Assembly: GCF_018614975.1 (NCBI RefSeq)
Contig: NZ_JAGGNR010000010.1
Coordinates: forward strand, 1 to 64,000
Source of the DNA: Paenibacillus polymyxa
Lineage (GTDB): Bacteria > Bacillota > Bacilli > Paenibacillales > Paenibacillaceae
Length of the DNA stretch: 64,000 nt
Direction of reading: 5' to 3'
In this document: in pieces, positions 16,367 through 64,000 of the stretch
How the letters are laid out: every line of letters starts with the position of its first letter
Position numbering within the stretch: the first letter of the stretch is position 1
The notes under the pieces: generated by a model
Databases searched by the model: none
What the model was told of the DNA's origin: nothing
What the model saw: only the letters and a program-made list of their open reading frames with translations
Program-made: the position numbers and the translations under genes

Positions 16367-17245
16367 ATGATGAGAAGAAAATGGCGAAGCCGGAGACGCC
16401 GTAAGCCGCCAAGCGGCAAACGCAAAATGTGGTTGATCATTTTATTAATCACCGCGTTTTGTTTGATGCAGGGCTTTGCTTATGTGGATAAAAAGATGAA
16501 GCCCCCCATCATGCATTTGGCCAAGATCAGAGTGAAGCAGATTGCGACTGAAGCGATCAACAAGGCGATTACAGCACAGGTTGCAGATGGCAAAACCAAC
16601 GAAGGACTGATTGACTGGAAGACGGATACCGCCGGGAAAGTTTCCGGTTTCATGCTGAACTACAATGAGCATATGCGAATCACTGCAAGTACGATGAATA
16701 TTGTGCAATCCACGCTGCAGAATGTACACATGTTAAAAGAAAAAATCCCGCTGGGGCAGGCGCTCGGCAGTCCGGTGTTGGCTTCATTTGGCCCGAGTAT
16801 ACCGGTTCGTATTGAGCCCCAAGGCGCTGTCAAAGTGGACCTGAACACCCGTCAACAGAATGCGGGTATTAACATGATTTTGGTGGAAGTGTACATTCAC
16901 ATCATTGCTGAGGTCGCGGTCGTGGTACCCTTCGACATGGAGCCCGAAACGGTCGATACGGAGATCCCGATTTCCTACCTTCTGGTTGTCGGGGATGTGC
17001 CAATGTATTATTACGATAATCAGGGCAAGCCAGTGGGCAGTAACGGCAGTAATGCCCCAGCTATTGCACTGCCCTCAGGTCATACGGGTGTATCAAGCGG
17101 TAATGGAGTAACTACGAATCCCCTTAACCAGAACCAGCAACAGACGCCGTCAGACCATTTGCAAGGGAATGAACTTGAATTTGAGCCGGATGATTTGCCT
17201 GATGTGAATGGGGGATTGCAACCTAATAAGGATACCCAGCCATGA
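16367..17245 (+). CDS. yunB: Sporulation protein YunB
   Basis: A 292-residue membrane-anchored protein. After a very basic N-terminus (residues 1-20) there is one membrane segment (about 21-40), then the YunB domain with the pattern IATEAINKAI, GKVSGFMLNYNEHMRI, IPLGQALGSPVLASFGPSIPV and ISYLLVVGDVP. In B. subtilis yunB is a mother-cell sporulation gene and sits beside lytH and near lipA, as here. The tail after residue 225 is rich in Gln, Asn and Pro and is probably disordered. A GGGGAGGG site precedes the ATG. Confidence 0.92.
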   Translation: MMRRKWRSRRRRKPPSGKRKMWLIILLITAFCLMQGFAYVDKKMKPPIMHLAKIRVKQIATEAINKAITAQVADGKTNEGLIDWKTDTAGKVSGFMLNYNEHMRITASTMNIVQSTLQNVHMLKEKIPLGQALGSPVLASFGPSIPVRIEPQGAVKVDLNTRQQNAGINMILVEVYIHIIAEVAVVVPFDMEPETVDTEIPISYLLVVGDVPMYYYDNQGKPVGSNGSNAPAIALPSGHTGVSSGNGVTTNPLNQNQQQTPSDHLQGNELEFEPDDLPDVNGGLQPNKDTQP

Positions 17246-17276
17246 TACACACAAATTTGAATTGCAAAGCAAAGAA

Positions 17277-60674: not shown

Positions 60675-60693
60675 TTAAAGAAGAGTTAATGAA

Positions 60694-60867
60694 AGGTTGT
60701 TCAAAAAGTACGCTTTTGATTACGAAGGATGCCTAGCGGCATCTCAGCGTCGAATATGGGATTCAGCCGAAATGTCCGTTGCTCACGTAGTTTTGCCTAC
60801 GCTCCGCTACTCCATTTCTATCTTCATCCCATCTTCTTGGTACTGAAAAGCGCCCTTTTTGAACATG
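60694..60867 (-). repeat. MITE-like element, copy 2
   Basis: An inverted copy of the element at 24411-24582, of the same length, with ends GGTTGTTCAAAAAG and CTTTTTGAACATG. It lies between the promoter and the start codon of yutM. It has no coding capacity. Confidence 0.8.
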
Positions 60868-60897
60868 ATTTTATATGAAAAAGGAGAGTGACCTGGC

Positions 60898-61254
60898 ATG
60901 ATTAACATCAGCGAAACGGCTGCTGACAGATTGAAAGAGATGCTTGCACAGCAAGAGACACCTGGTATGTTCCTGCGTCTTGGCGTAGCACCGGGCGGTT
61001 GCACCGGATTTTCGTACGCCATGGGCTTTGACGATAAAGAGTCCGATGAGGACCTGTATATGGATATTCAGAACATGAAGGTTGTAGTTGAGAAGGAAAA
61101 CCTGAAATACCTGGATGGACTTGAAATTGATTTTGAAGAGTCCGGTATGACGGGTGGGTTCACCATCCATAATCCGAACGCGGTAGCCACTTGTGGTTGT
61201 GGATCTTCTTTCCGTACGAAGGAAGACGCGGGTGTGCCGGATAAGGATTGCTGA
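60898..61254 (+). CDS. yutM: Iron-sulfur carrier, IscA/HesB family (YutM)
   Basis: A 118-residue A-type Fe-S carrier. The three conserved cysteines are C35 (GGCTGFSY), C99 and C101 (CGCGSSF). ATG 60898 follows AAAAGGAGAGTGACC. It lies near yutI, yuzB and yutJ as in B. subtilis. Codons 88-93 (FTIHNP) contain the 17-bp sequence TTCACCATCCATAATCC, which occurs again at the end of the window. The reading frame itself is intact, so if an element inserted here it kept the gene functional. Confidence 0.95.
   Translation: MINISETAADRLKEMLAQQETPGMFLRLGVAPGGCTGFSYAMGFDDKESDEDLYMDIQNMKVVVEKENLKYLDGLEIDFEESGMTGGFTIHNPNAVATCGCGSSFRTKEDAGVPDKDC
61159..61175 (+). repeat. Candidate attL: 17-bp direct repeat inside yutM
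   Basis: TTCACCATCCATAATCC is identical to 63984-64000. It is placed in the 3' part of a conserved gene, a common target of tyrosine integrases, and an integrase fragment lies about 300 bases downstream. Confidence 0.55.
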
Positions 61255-61452
61255 TCTGACGCGGGTTTGAGCGTGTTATAAGACGCTCGATGGACGCAAG
61301 CCTGTAACGGTAGCCTTAACGGTGCAGATTGTGAATTGCGTAGGTATTTCGGTAGGTTAACAACCCCGAACGATGAACGTTATCAATCCTTGAAATGGCA
61401 TTTCAGGGTTGTGAATCACGGCCTCTATGGCGTATTAGTCTCGTACTAATTA

Positions 61453-61638
61453 CGTTATGGAGGTCTTTTTGTTAACGAGAACGGCGGCGCGCGTGATGTA
61501 AAGTTGTTCCCGGAGCTTACATTAGAGCGAGCGTTAGACCTTATAATCAACGCGAAGAAAGTGGAGGGACTGCGCGAAAGGACGCTTATGGATTACAGGA
61601 AGCATTACGGTTACTTTGTGAACGTAAACCAGTTATGA
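61453..61638 (+). pseudogene. Tyrosine integrase fragment (N-terminal SAM-like domain)
   Basis: The frame ending at TGA 61638 reads LTLERALDLIINAKKVEG, then LRERTLMDYRKHYGYFVNV, which is the core-binding domain of phage integrases (TL-x-E-A-x-xxF-x-x-AK-x-xGL-x-x-xT-x-x-DY). There is no proper start codon: GGAGG at 61459-61463 is followed by GTT where a start would be expected. The catalytic domain is absent. It is a remnant of an integrase, fitting the att-like repeat in yutM. Confidence 0.65.
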
Positions 61639-61733
61639 ATGAATTTATTTTCTTAATTGATGGTGAGAAATACAACGAGAAGCGCATTAACGTTCAAAGA
61701 GTATCTGAACGAGGAAAAATAAAAGTATTCTGA
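61635..61733 (+). CDS. Possible 32-residue ORF after the integrase fragment
   Basis: ATG 61635 overlaps the TGA of the integrase fragment (ATGA) and encodes a short charged peptide (MNEFIFLIDGEKYNEKRINV and onward) ending at 61733. An imperfect hairpin and a T run follow at 61735-61769. It has no recognisable family and may be part of the decayed region. Confidence 0.3.
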   Translation: MNEFIFLIDGEKYNEKRINVQRVSERGKIKVF

Positions 61734-61780
61734 ACCGCAGCGGATAGCATTTCTGTTGCGTTTTTTTTGTTTATACCGTA

Positions 61781-61818
61781 GCGAAGGATTCCTTGCCACG
61801 TTGCAAGGAATCCTTCGC
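61781..61818. repeat. Perfect 16-bp inverted repeat
   Basis: GCGAAGGATTCCTTGC, loop CACGTT, then GCAAGGAATCCTTCGC. There is no T run on either side, so it is not a standard terminator. It could be a protein-binding site, a recombination end or an RNA structure of the integrated element. Confidence 0.7.
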
Positions 61819-61898
61819 ATGCGAGCGTGGTTATGTTGAAGTATATCGGAGTGAGTGGGGGAACGAGTTCATTTTTAACGGTGCCTCCGGAGTAGACA

Positions 61899-61929
61899 AG
61901 AAAAAGACGCAGTTATTATAGACTGCGTC
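61899..61929 (-). terminator. Terminator of the 251-residue gene
   Basis: On the minus strand GACGCAGTCT / AGT(T)ACTGCGTC-type stem (8 bp GACGCAGT / ACTGCGTC) followed by TTTTTCTT. Confidence 0.75.
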
Positions 61930-61993
61930 CGGGTCTTGCGTATGTTGGCGGTAAGTGTTGGTAAACTATAGTTTCGGATGCTTGTTTCACAGG

Positions 61994-62749
61994 TTATTCT
62001 GAACCTATGTTATTATCAGAAGATGTCCCTTCTTCAAGATGAAGAATTTCAACTGGGAAGTGCTCCTTTATGTCGGGCGGTAACATTTCAAGAGCTGCTC
62101 CACCTAATGCTTTTACAGTATTTGGGTTTCGACGACTCCAAGTATATACTTTAGTTGTAAAAGCTTTTACCCAATTTCCTTTAGTGAATGAGTCGAGTTG
62201 ATTTTTTAAAAGTTCGATTTCTTTAGAAAGATTCGCCATCTCTTGGTTGAGTTTGTTTTTGTCTTGATGTTCTTCTTCTAGTTTAACTTTAAATGTTTCC
62301 TCTAACTTTGTTAATCTTATCGCTAATTCTTTCGATTCGGATGATGTGAAAAGAACGTCCTTATCTATTTTATCTACAGATGATTCTATCCGTTTCAAAG
62401 TTTCTTCGAAAATTTTGTGTTTTTCTTCCAATATCCGATTAGATGGAGATAGATTCATATCCGTTTCCATTAGATCAAGCCAGTTTTTTATAGAGGTTAT
62501 TACTCCCCAAGTGTCCTTTTTTGAGTGGTTTTCCTTATCCAATATACTACCAGGAGATTGCTCTATTTCTATAACGCCATTACTTCCAATTGTAATACTC
62601 ATCTTATATTTTTTGTTAAACCTATAAATAATTGATATGACAGCATCGTCATAACTTTGACTTTCGAGAAACTCAAAATCTTCCGATGAGAATACCCCTG
62701 TGTCTAACGCTTGTTGGAATTTAATTTTAGTAGCTGTATTTAAGGCCAT
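61994..62749 (-). CDS. Unknown 251-residue protein of the integrated element
   Basis: ATG 62749 follows AAGGAG by 9 bases, and a terminator follows the stop, so it is a true gene. Residues about 1-95 form a globular N-terminal part (SYDDAVISIIYRFNKKYKMS, then ITIGSNGVIEIEQ and WLDLMETDMNLS). Residues about 105-190 are a strong coiled coil (LEEKHKIFEETLKRIES and LNQEMANLSKEIELLKNQL). The tail has AFTTKVYTWSRRNPNTVKALGGAALEMLPP, which looks like a small hydrophobic hairpin. There is no signal peptide. It is more AT-rich than the chromosomal genes. I do not recognise a family. Position on an integrated element allows a defence or exclusion role, but nothing in the sequence proves it. Confidence 0.75.
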   Translation of the reverse strand: MALNTATKIKFQQALDTGVFSSEDFEFLESQSYDDAVISIIYRFNKKYKMSITIGSNGVIEIEQSPGSILDKENHSKKDTWGVITSIKNWLDLMETDMNLSPSNRILEEKHKIFEETLKRIESSVDKIDKDVLFTSSESKELAIRLTKLEETFKVKLEEEHQDKNKLNQEMANLSKEIELLKNQLDSFTKGNWVKAFTTKVYTWSRRNPNTVKALGGAALEMLPPDIKEHFPVEILHLEEGTSSDNNIGSE

Positions 62750-62872
62750 CTGTTAATACTCCTTCATCTCATAGATTTCGTATAGAGGGCTATTTAGATT
62801 TAACCTGATTAGTGATTCGGTTTATTGATACTTGGAATGACTCAATAATGTCCTCAACTGATACTCTAATAC

Positions 62873-63164
62873 ATGGCACAATTTATCGACAGACGAGGAA
62901 ATCCGCAGAGATATCGTGGACCTGAACGATCTAGTCGGCTGATGGATAGCGTAGGATTGCTGTACGATACCGGACAGAGTAGCGATGAGTGGGTATTAAA
63001 AAAACTACACCGTGCTCCTGGCGGATGGCCACGGGTAAACTTCGGGGTTGGACGACTACATAACGAATGCATACTGCACGGATGGCCGGCTGTATAAACT
63101 GCCAGTAGGTTACGGCCGATATACGCCTTTAGTCCGCGCAGTTATACGGTTTATGAGCATATAG
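62873..63164 (+). pseudogene. Possible frameshifted gene in the element
   Basis: The frame from ATG 62873 encodes a basic segment (DRRGNPQRYRGPERSSRLMD, then LLYDTGQSSDEWVLKKLHRA). Near 63040 the +1 frame takes over with LDDYITNAYCTDGRLYKLPV and ends at 63164. Together they would give about 96 residues with even composition. No ribosome site is seen. It may be a decayed phage gene. The following 63165-63328 holds nothing I can support. Confidence 0.3.
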
Positions 63165-63328
63165 GAGTGGGAATGTATATGCAATGAATAACGCGGGATT
63201 GATAATCACATATCCGCAATCCTTTGCTACGGTATATTTATGCGGTAAGCAAGATGGTTAAACGGAACGGAATTGTGTGACCCCCAAGGGCCCATACGCA
63301 AGTCATCGAGGTACAACAACCTGACCAC

Positions 63329-63370
63329 TAAAAAAGTGGCGCAGTTCCCACTCCAATGAGGTCTGCGCCG
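63329..63370 (-). terminator. Terminator of the 117-residue gene
   Basis: On the minus strand GGCGCAGA / ACTGCGCC with an inner stem, then ACTTTTTTAG. Confidence 0.65.
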
Positions 63371-63380
63371 TTTCTACGTT

Positions 63381-63722
63381 TTATGCTTCGTTTTTTAATC
63401 CAATATTGCTTCTATATGATTTGTGAACCATATCCTTCACAAATTCTACCAAATCTAAGTCGGGATCACGTTCGATAGCGTCATACACATATTTGATGCT
63501 CAGGTTTAGTGGGACTTTGTATACGTCAATCTGAGCGCTCTTACTCCCGATAGAAGTTGGTGCGGTTGATATCCCAGCTCGACTTAGCGCATCGAACACA
63601 TTACGGAACGCATCAGTTACATTTTCTTGAGCACGACGTATTTTTATCTGCCTGTCTGCTCTCTCTTTAACGATTTTTTCTTTTTCTTGATTCGCTAGTT
63701 CTAACATTTCAACAAGATTCAA
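63381..63722 (-). CDS. Unknown 113-residue protein of the integrated element
   Basis: A helical N-terminal half (MLELANQEKEKIVKERADRQ) is followed by a conserved-looking ARENVTDAF-type segment and a C-terminal globular part (VYKVPLNLSIKYVYDAIERD). TTG 63722 has AAGGGTGG 8 bases upstream; GTG 63734 is the alternative. A terminator follows the stop. I recognise no family. Confidence 0.6.
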   Translation of the reverse strand: MNLVEMLELANQEKEKIVKERADRQIKIRRAQENVTDAFRNVFDALSRAGISTAPTSIGSKSAQIDVYKVPLNLSIKYVYDAIERDPDLDLVEFVKDMVHKSYRSNIGLKNEA

Positions 63723-63734
63723 CCGATTGACCAC

Positions 63735-63983
63735 CCTTCACATATATTCTACTACTTATATATTTTACCACGTGAAATATTGTAAATCTACTAAACAACT
63801 GCTTGCCACGTAGTTTAAAACCTTGTTGATTTGTCCACGCCCACTAGGGTAGAGTGCGGTTAACGAGATTATGCGTCATAGTGGCGCGTGATTAACAAGT
63901 AGTCGTGTGGATTCACAATCCCGCCCACATGCCAGAAACAGCGTAGTGACGGACGTTAAGCCTTCCTAATAGCTAAGCGTAAA
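63735..63983. other. Right end of the element, non-coding
   Basis: AT-rich upstream region of the 113-residue gene (63735-63800), then about 180 bases without an open frame that leads to the second direct repeat. I see no gene. Confidence 0.4.
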
Positions 63984-64000
63984 TTCACCATCCATAATCC
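63984..64000 (+). repeat. Candidate attR: second copy of the 17-bp yutM repeat
   Basis: TTCACCATCCATAATCC is identical to yutM codons 88-93 and is cut off by the window end, so the true length of the match is unknown. Confidence 0.55.

Follow-up and report, generated by a model that had tools for sequence, protein, structure and literature searches.

Does the short direct repeat that begins inside yutM, close to the right end of a 64,000-bp stretch of Paenibacillus polymyxa DNA, mark a mobile element, and if so, to which kind of element did it belong? The stretch, called the window in the following, comprises bases 1 to 64000 of contig NZ_JAGGNR010000010.1 (contig C2 of genome G000). A preliminary description made from the sequence letters had noted a 17-bp exact direct repeat within yutM and at the last bases of the window, and had proposed a mobile element which uses the 3′ part of this gene as attachment site. 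This proposal is supported by the extension of the repeat, by empty sites in relatives and by elements at the same site elsewhere. In our view the insert is a deletion-worn relic of a yutM-specific element whose parent family most likely consists of phage satellites, and we would give this reading a probability of about 85%.

The target gene yutM (60898-61254, plus strand) encodes an A-type Fe-S carrier of the IscA/HesB family with 118 aa (TIGR00049, 5.3e-34; PF01521, 4.7e-21). Its reading frame is full length and in frame despite the insertion. The sequence TTCACCATCCATAATCC is present in two exact copies, at 61159-61175 inside yutM and at 63984-64000 at the window end, exactly where they had been described. 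By itself a 17-mer is suggestive only, as shuffled sequence gives a mean of 0.30 matches at up to three mismatches. Read from the window's own assembly, the right copy runs on past the window to contig position 64075. It measures 92 bp with 97% identity to 61159-61250, and the alignment of both copies has three mismatches and diverges at the stop codon (TGA versus TAA). A duplicate yutM 3′ end of about 80 further bases had been predicted beyond the window; 75 were found, reaching the stop. Because the repeat extends beyond base 64000, its chance origin is excluded. The left copy (61159-61250, plus strand) is annotated as attL, the 3′ end of yutM borne by the element, and the right copy (starting with 63984-64000, plus strand, and continuing to contig position 64075 outside the window) as attR, the displaced original 3′ end of the host gene.

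Insertion-free yutM genes are found in genomes G032 (yutM 99% identical), G067, G005, G035, G051, G050 and G003. As the preliminary description had expected for relatives lacking the element, yutM is joined in these close relatives directly to the DNA found 3′ of attR in P. polymyxa, including an NAD(P)-binding-like gene. In a five-way alignment attL goes with the chromosomal left flank, attR with the right flank and the empty sites with both. The crossover region, the attB core, is located at 61159-61175 (plus strand) at yutM codon 88 (FTIHNPNA...). Identity between attL and attR starts at or a few bases from TTCAC in this codon in all elements compared except L042 and L098, in which the homology between the copies extends further upstream. 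The first mismatch is met at position 12 in elements L091 and L097 and at position 18 in L041; assuming that such mismatches mark the boundary, the exchange would take place within the first 11-17 bp of the site. With a crossover at codon 88 the element supplies new last 31 residues of YutM. In the window these donor-derived residues are FTIHNPNAVATCGCGSSFRTKEDAGVPDKDC and include the CGCG (CxC) ligand motif. In A-type carriers (IscA/SufA) the CxC motif provides two of the three cluster ligands. In L044 the left copy differs by about 14% from the displaced right copy of the host and closely matches the native end of genome G002, a pattern which transfer between species would leave. Taken together, the att repeats which restore the gene, the empty sites and the site-linked integrase clade described below make the insert recognisable as a site-specific integrative element at a gene 3′ end. 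In the open-access literature we found no paper on a gene of the IscA/HesB/YutM type as attachment site.

The insert has a size of 2.8 kb and is an internally deleted relative of elements of 16.1-18.4 kb, with both ends and the att sites kept. Its intact left end of 464 bp (61159-61622, plus strand) has 85-87% nucleotide identity to the left ends of elements L040, L041, L043 and L044. Within it starts the integrase fragment that the preliminary description had noticed beside the left repeat (61486-61638, plus strand; open reading frame 61504-61638). Positions 61486-61620 are 84% identical to residues 13-57 of the integrase Int1 of L040. The full tyrosine integrase of the relatives has 346 aa; in the window Int1 ends after about residue 57 and the catalytic domain is lost. 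Then follow a terminator-like hairpin (61781-61818; 19-bp arms, 95% complementary, no spacer) and a fragment of the element interior (61891-61955, plus strand; 82-88% nucleotide identity), the counterpart of which in L041, L044 and L045 lies some 3 kb inward from the left end. The stretch from about residue 57 of Int1 to the last 21 residues of a protein resembling the small terminase subunit TerS is gone or replaced, in part by an opposite-strand gene for a coiled-coil-like cargo protein of 251 aa (61994-62749, minus strand). Family searches gave no match for this protein above the curated cut-off and PADLOC gives weak coiled-coil matches only; homologues with 31-34% identity were found in two other genomes among 297 searched. 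The remaining 21 TerS-like residues (62877-62939, plus strand) are 76-81% identical to residues 130-150 in L041 and 145-165 in L046. They overlap a gapped right-end block (62888-63293, plus strand) with 74-88% nucleotide identity to the right ends of L040-L046. A second cargo gene of 117 aa (63381-63734, minus strand) is 36% identical to the gene at the same position in the element of G002. The right terminal block ending in attR (63825-64000, plus strand) has 79-91% nucleotide identity to the right ends of L041 and L043-L046, and 63845-64000 has 89% identity to that of L040. Thus the broken frames and opposite-strand genes mentioned in the preliminary description are present, the latter being the two minus-strand genes. 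Judged by its sequence, the window copy is a deletion remnant incapable of moving by itself, and as no complete Int1 is encoded it is best called a relic. Genomes G020 and G068 contain other remnants which likewise retain the Int1 N-terminus only; a second yutM repeat was looked for in both and not found.

A search for elements at the same site had also been proposed, and such elements were found across the Paenibacillaceae. With yutM DNA as query, a second yutM 3′ end was detected in eight further genomes among 75 of the genus, at a distance of 16-18 kb in seven and of about 7 kb in one (G056). A profile of Int1 was searched in 396 genomes of the family and gave bimodal scores: all 23 matches of at least 312 bits are located directly behind yutM, and none of the seven examined matches of 301 bits or less. 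A separate scan, made on named genomes ranging from P. amylolyticus to Cohnella lupini, gave nine integrases, and all nine are behind yutM. The 25 yutM-associated integrases form one clade in a maximum-likelihood tree (support 100/99), in which some of the 25 sequences are the same genome met twice and row L079 (wrong reading frame, Int1 being broken there) is ignored. In 20-kb stretches the repeats of L090, L091, L092, L095 and L097 are 96-112 bp long and 98-100% identical; these insertions are therefore recent or have been kept alike by exchange.

Several loci show further arrangements. In Paenibacillus sp. Soil750 (L052, 1318-11023) two tandem elements are located at yutM, the full yutM and one Int1 being followed by a second yutM 3′ copy and a different Int1; L098 has a similar tandem remnant. 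In P. faecalis (L054, 10001-11230) residues 1-240 of Int1 are fused to residues 115-302 of a second recombinase, Int2, with stops, apparently by recombination between tandem integrase genes. P. taichungensis (L042/L053) has an AT-rich element of 7.1 kb at yutM with a more distant Int1 (55%), the repeat of which begins further upstream at yutM base 220. L092 has three yutM 3′-end copies in all; the last two (16943-17249, with yutM on the plus strand) are about 200 bp apart and near a run of N. The extra copy may have been left behind by an earlier insertion, or the assembly may have a gap here. Among phage records, YutM-like matches are mostly full-length genes, many of them in host-like records, and they revealed no phage whose attP is of the yutM type.

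The 13 elements with both repeats (16.1-18.4 kb) have a common gene order: Int1, often Int2 (a second tyrosine recombinase with a 4-bp overlap with Int1), small genes, a conserved protein of a 319- or 309-aa family, a cold-shock-domain protein, a 206-aa helical protein, a tape measure protein, the DUF2577 protein and the TerS-like protein. Ten out of 15 elements encode the tape measure (TIGR01760, 1.5e-42) and ten the TerS-like protein. An archaeo-eukaryotic primase (AEP)-type primase is found in some elements and primase or initiator matches in some. As defence cargo we recognise SpbK, a Toll/interleukin-1 receptor (TIR) protein (7e-64; L095:15777-16913), AbiJ (3.6e-15; L047:13079-13909) and a kinase of the Stk2/PD-T4-6 type (1e-34 to 1e-28; L098:9837-11030). 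Capsid and portal genes are absent from the 25 PHROG families displayed of the 120 matched by 98 cluster representatives. The conserved clusters contained no recognisable gene for a relaxase or for conjugation, and a single FtsK/SpoIIIE-like match was found among the 98 representatives. When looking for a master regulator of the Stl/AlpA type we obtained only matches to a generic family of transcriptional regulators (phrog_8). An 86-aa protein in L047 (6283-6543) is similar (46%) to the C-terminal portion of phage scaffolds and is possibly a factor interfering with capsid size or assembly; a parallel with the size-redirecting scaffolds of staphylococcal pathogenicity islands (SaPIs) may be suspected. 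Structure prediction gave no usable fold for the 319-aa protein (pLDDT 32). The first 150 residues of the 206-aa protein are predicted as a confident helix bundle, without a significant fold match among viral proteins. An 'Rz-like spanin' match on a 202-aa coiled coil was taken as chance.

The tail genes deserve a closer look. Within this one element family the tape measures range from 486 to 1349 aa. Those of L041, L045, L114 and L115 are 61-81% identical to the tape measure of the PBSX-type prophage L113 (from IMG/VR), and those of the remaining satellites show lower identity (27-57%). L113 itself carries portal, capsid, sheath, tube, XkdN-type chaperone, LysM, hub, DUF2577 and baseplate J. 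Using portal, capsid, sheath, tube and baseplate J proteins of one PBSX-type prophage, tblastn detected no homologue in 17 satellites; the sole exception in this search was a 46-residue hub fragment in L093. Tape measure and DUF2577 occur together in L041, L044, L045, L046, L047, L092, L093 and L114, and DUF2577 is 36-62% identical between satellites and PBSX-type prophages. An XkdN-type tail assembly chaperone (TAC) is encoded only in the IMG/VR elements L114 and L115 (53-54% identity). In other elements a 106-aa gene before the tape measure was considered as such a chaperone and has no detectable similarity by hhalign; a TAC is therefore claimed for L114 and L115 only. Genome G010 has a satellite at yutM as well as a complete PBSX-type tail cluster elsewhere (prophage L124), and this prophage is a putative helper.

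How do these elements compare with known systems? Phage-inducible chromosomal islands (PICIs) are defined as islands of 7-20 kb with int, replication genes, TerS, defence cargo and a site in a housekeeping gene (PMC13376191, PMC11364771, PMC10111431). Like SaPI-like PICIs and the StCIs of Streptococcus, the yutM elements are islands between attL and attR, with int at one end, replication genes, TerS, defence cargo and a conserved gene as site. They differ from them in that they use yutM, often have two tandem integrases and carry tape measure and DUF2577. As the strict PICI definition excludes viral structural genes (PMC13376191), we withhold the PICI label. With their size, int, replication module and TerS in the absence of a detected capsid or portal, the intact elements nevertheless look as if they work like a satellite, and this part of our reading stands. 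In March 2026 the Vibrio PLEs (PICI-like elements) were reported in Nature as the first satellites encoding tape measure, chaperone and baseplate hub, with which they build chimeric tails, and putative tmp genes were seen in other satellites as well (PMC12987554). Like the PLEs, the yutM elements carry a partial tail module: a satellite tape measure and a baseplate protein, in L114 and L115 also the TAC, with no sheath or tube found. Unlike the PLEs they reside in an unrelated host phylum, point to PBSX-like phages instead of ICP1 as helper, have TerS, and encode DUF2577 rather than BhuB; moreover, tail incorporation was shown for the PLEs whereas for the yutM elements it is a suggestion from the genes. 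The Paenibacillaceae family would then be a separate Gram-positive case of tail-gene satellites. Capsid-forming PICIs (cf-PICIs) also carry a putative tape-measure gene on a PICI-like island (PMC12987554, Extended Data Fig. 10), but make their own capsids, whereas no capsid gene was detected in the yutM elements. Finally, tape measure (26-81%), DUF2577 (36-62%) and TAC (54%) have homologues in the PBSX-type myoprophages L113 and L124, which in contrast possess complete head, sheath, tube and baseplate and in G010 are located away from yutM.

Could the elements of about 17 kb instead be compact or defective prophages, tailocin-like, whose tail and terminase genes are left over from lost phages that used yutM? 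Tape measure, DUF2577, TerS and, once, the large terminase subunit TerL are true phage genes, and the tape measures match those of full phages. But size and gene order are uniform in 13 divergent elements with open frames kept, and independent decay would not leave the same set of genes. In addition, identity between the att repeats reaches 100%, and capsid, portal, sheath and tube were not found with the phage queries used. We regard this explanation as unlikely. Still less can be said for an integrative conjugative element (ICE) or mobilizable element. Site-specific integration restoring a conserved gene would suit it, as would defence cargo such as SpbK, which was first described on ICEBs1; yet none of the conserved clusters was recognised as a relaxase or conjugation gene, the 98 representatives gave only the one FtsK/SpoIIIE-like match, and what is found instead are genes for phage packaging. 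This makes a conjugative nature very improbable.

For the window copy itself two further explanations have to be weighed. It might be a non-autonomous derivative which is still excised in trans whenever an intact Int1 is present. The kept ends and att sites (61159-61622 and 63825-64000), with 74-91% identity to intact elements, would fit, and so would the recurrence of the bare Int1 N-terminus in G020 and G068. The same 2.8-kb form was seen in no second genome, however, and the absence of a second repeat in G020 and G068 suggests plain erosion, so that mobilization in trans appears rather improbable. That no mobile element is involved, the repeat having arisen by chance or by simple segmental duplication of the end of yutM, could be argued from the weakness of a 17-bp repeat as sole evidence. 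Against this stand the 92 bp at 97% identity, the 23 genomes with the integrase clade at this site, the empty sites in relatives and the homology of the window ends to intact elements. The extension past base 64000 together with the empty sites refutes this explanation, and we consider its probability negligible.

We thus retain the reading of a relic derived from a satellite family, and its parts are not equally firm. The sequences show the attachment site, the duplication, the empty sites, the association of integrase and site and the decay of the window copy. From the gene content a satellite life style appears quite probable, while the remaking of tails is a tentative suggestion with at best even odds. 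That the family is an undescribed Gram-positive one which evolved chimeric contractile tails independently of the PLEs, and which repairs an Fe-S carrier with a donor C-terminus holding two ligand cysteines, is similarly a conjecture for which the chances are slightly below even. Several points weigh against the satellite interpretation. There is so far no observation of a helper phage or of induction, excision or packaging. Of the 15 elements, five have no tape measure and five no TerS, and the 251-aa gene of the window has no known role. The P. polymyxa genome has no tape-measure match, hence no PBSX-like helper was found there. The genes of the yutM elements are mostly, indeed nearly all, collinear with int, unlike the divergent gene arrangement of SaPIs. 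L092 also carries TerL and L094 has no second repeat within 20 kb; some members may therefore be larger or different. L094, from P. tengchongensis, has Int1 at yutM, a second recombinase, an AEP-type primase, a TerS-like protein and TerL; it may be an element of larger size or a phage that shares the site.

We suggest that the elements operate in the following way. The attP of the element contains a copy of the yutM 3′ end that is 92-107 bp long, and the element-encoded Int1 would recombine it with yutM, the exchange falling in the first 11-17 bp of TTCACCATCCAYAAYCC. As sequence comparison shows, yutM is left intact with donor-derived last 31 codons and the host 3′ end is displaced as attR. 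The satellites, integrated as islands, could use a primase or initiator of their own for replication, a helper phage would mobilise them through the satellite TerS, and the anti-phage cargo would protect the host. Their own tape measure, often together with the DUF2577 baseplate protein, might build chimeric tails from parts otherwise made by the helper. Among phage satellites, defence genes combined with a few borrowed tail genes are only now coming to notice. The recent proposal that phage tails are remade by satellites could be tested naturally on the parent elements, at least one of which shares its genome with a putative helper. The integration site in an A-type Fe-S carrier gene conserved across the Paenibacillaceae could, together with the integrase clade, serve as a genetic tool. 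The relic in the window illustrates how an island decays with its target gene staying repaired.

Upstream of yutM a dispersed repeat of about 185 bp (60695-60878) resembles miniature inverted-repeat transposable elements (MITEs). It has 39-nt inverted ends (60689-60727 and 60836-60874), and about 30 copies of part of it are spread over the genome. At this place the repeat is absent in G032, G067 and G005 and present in G035 and G051.

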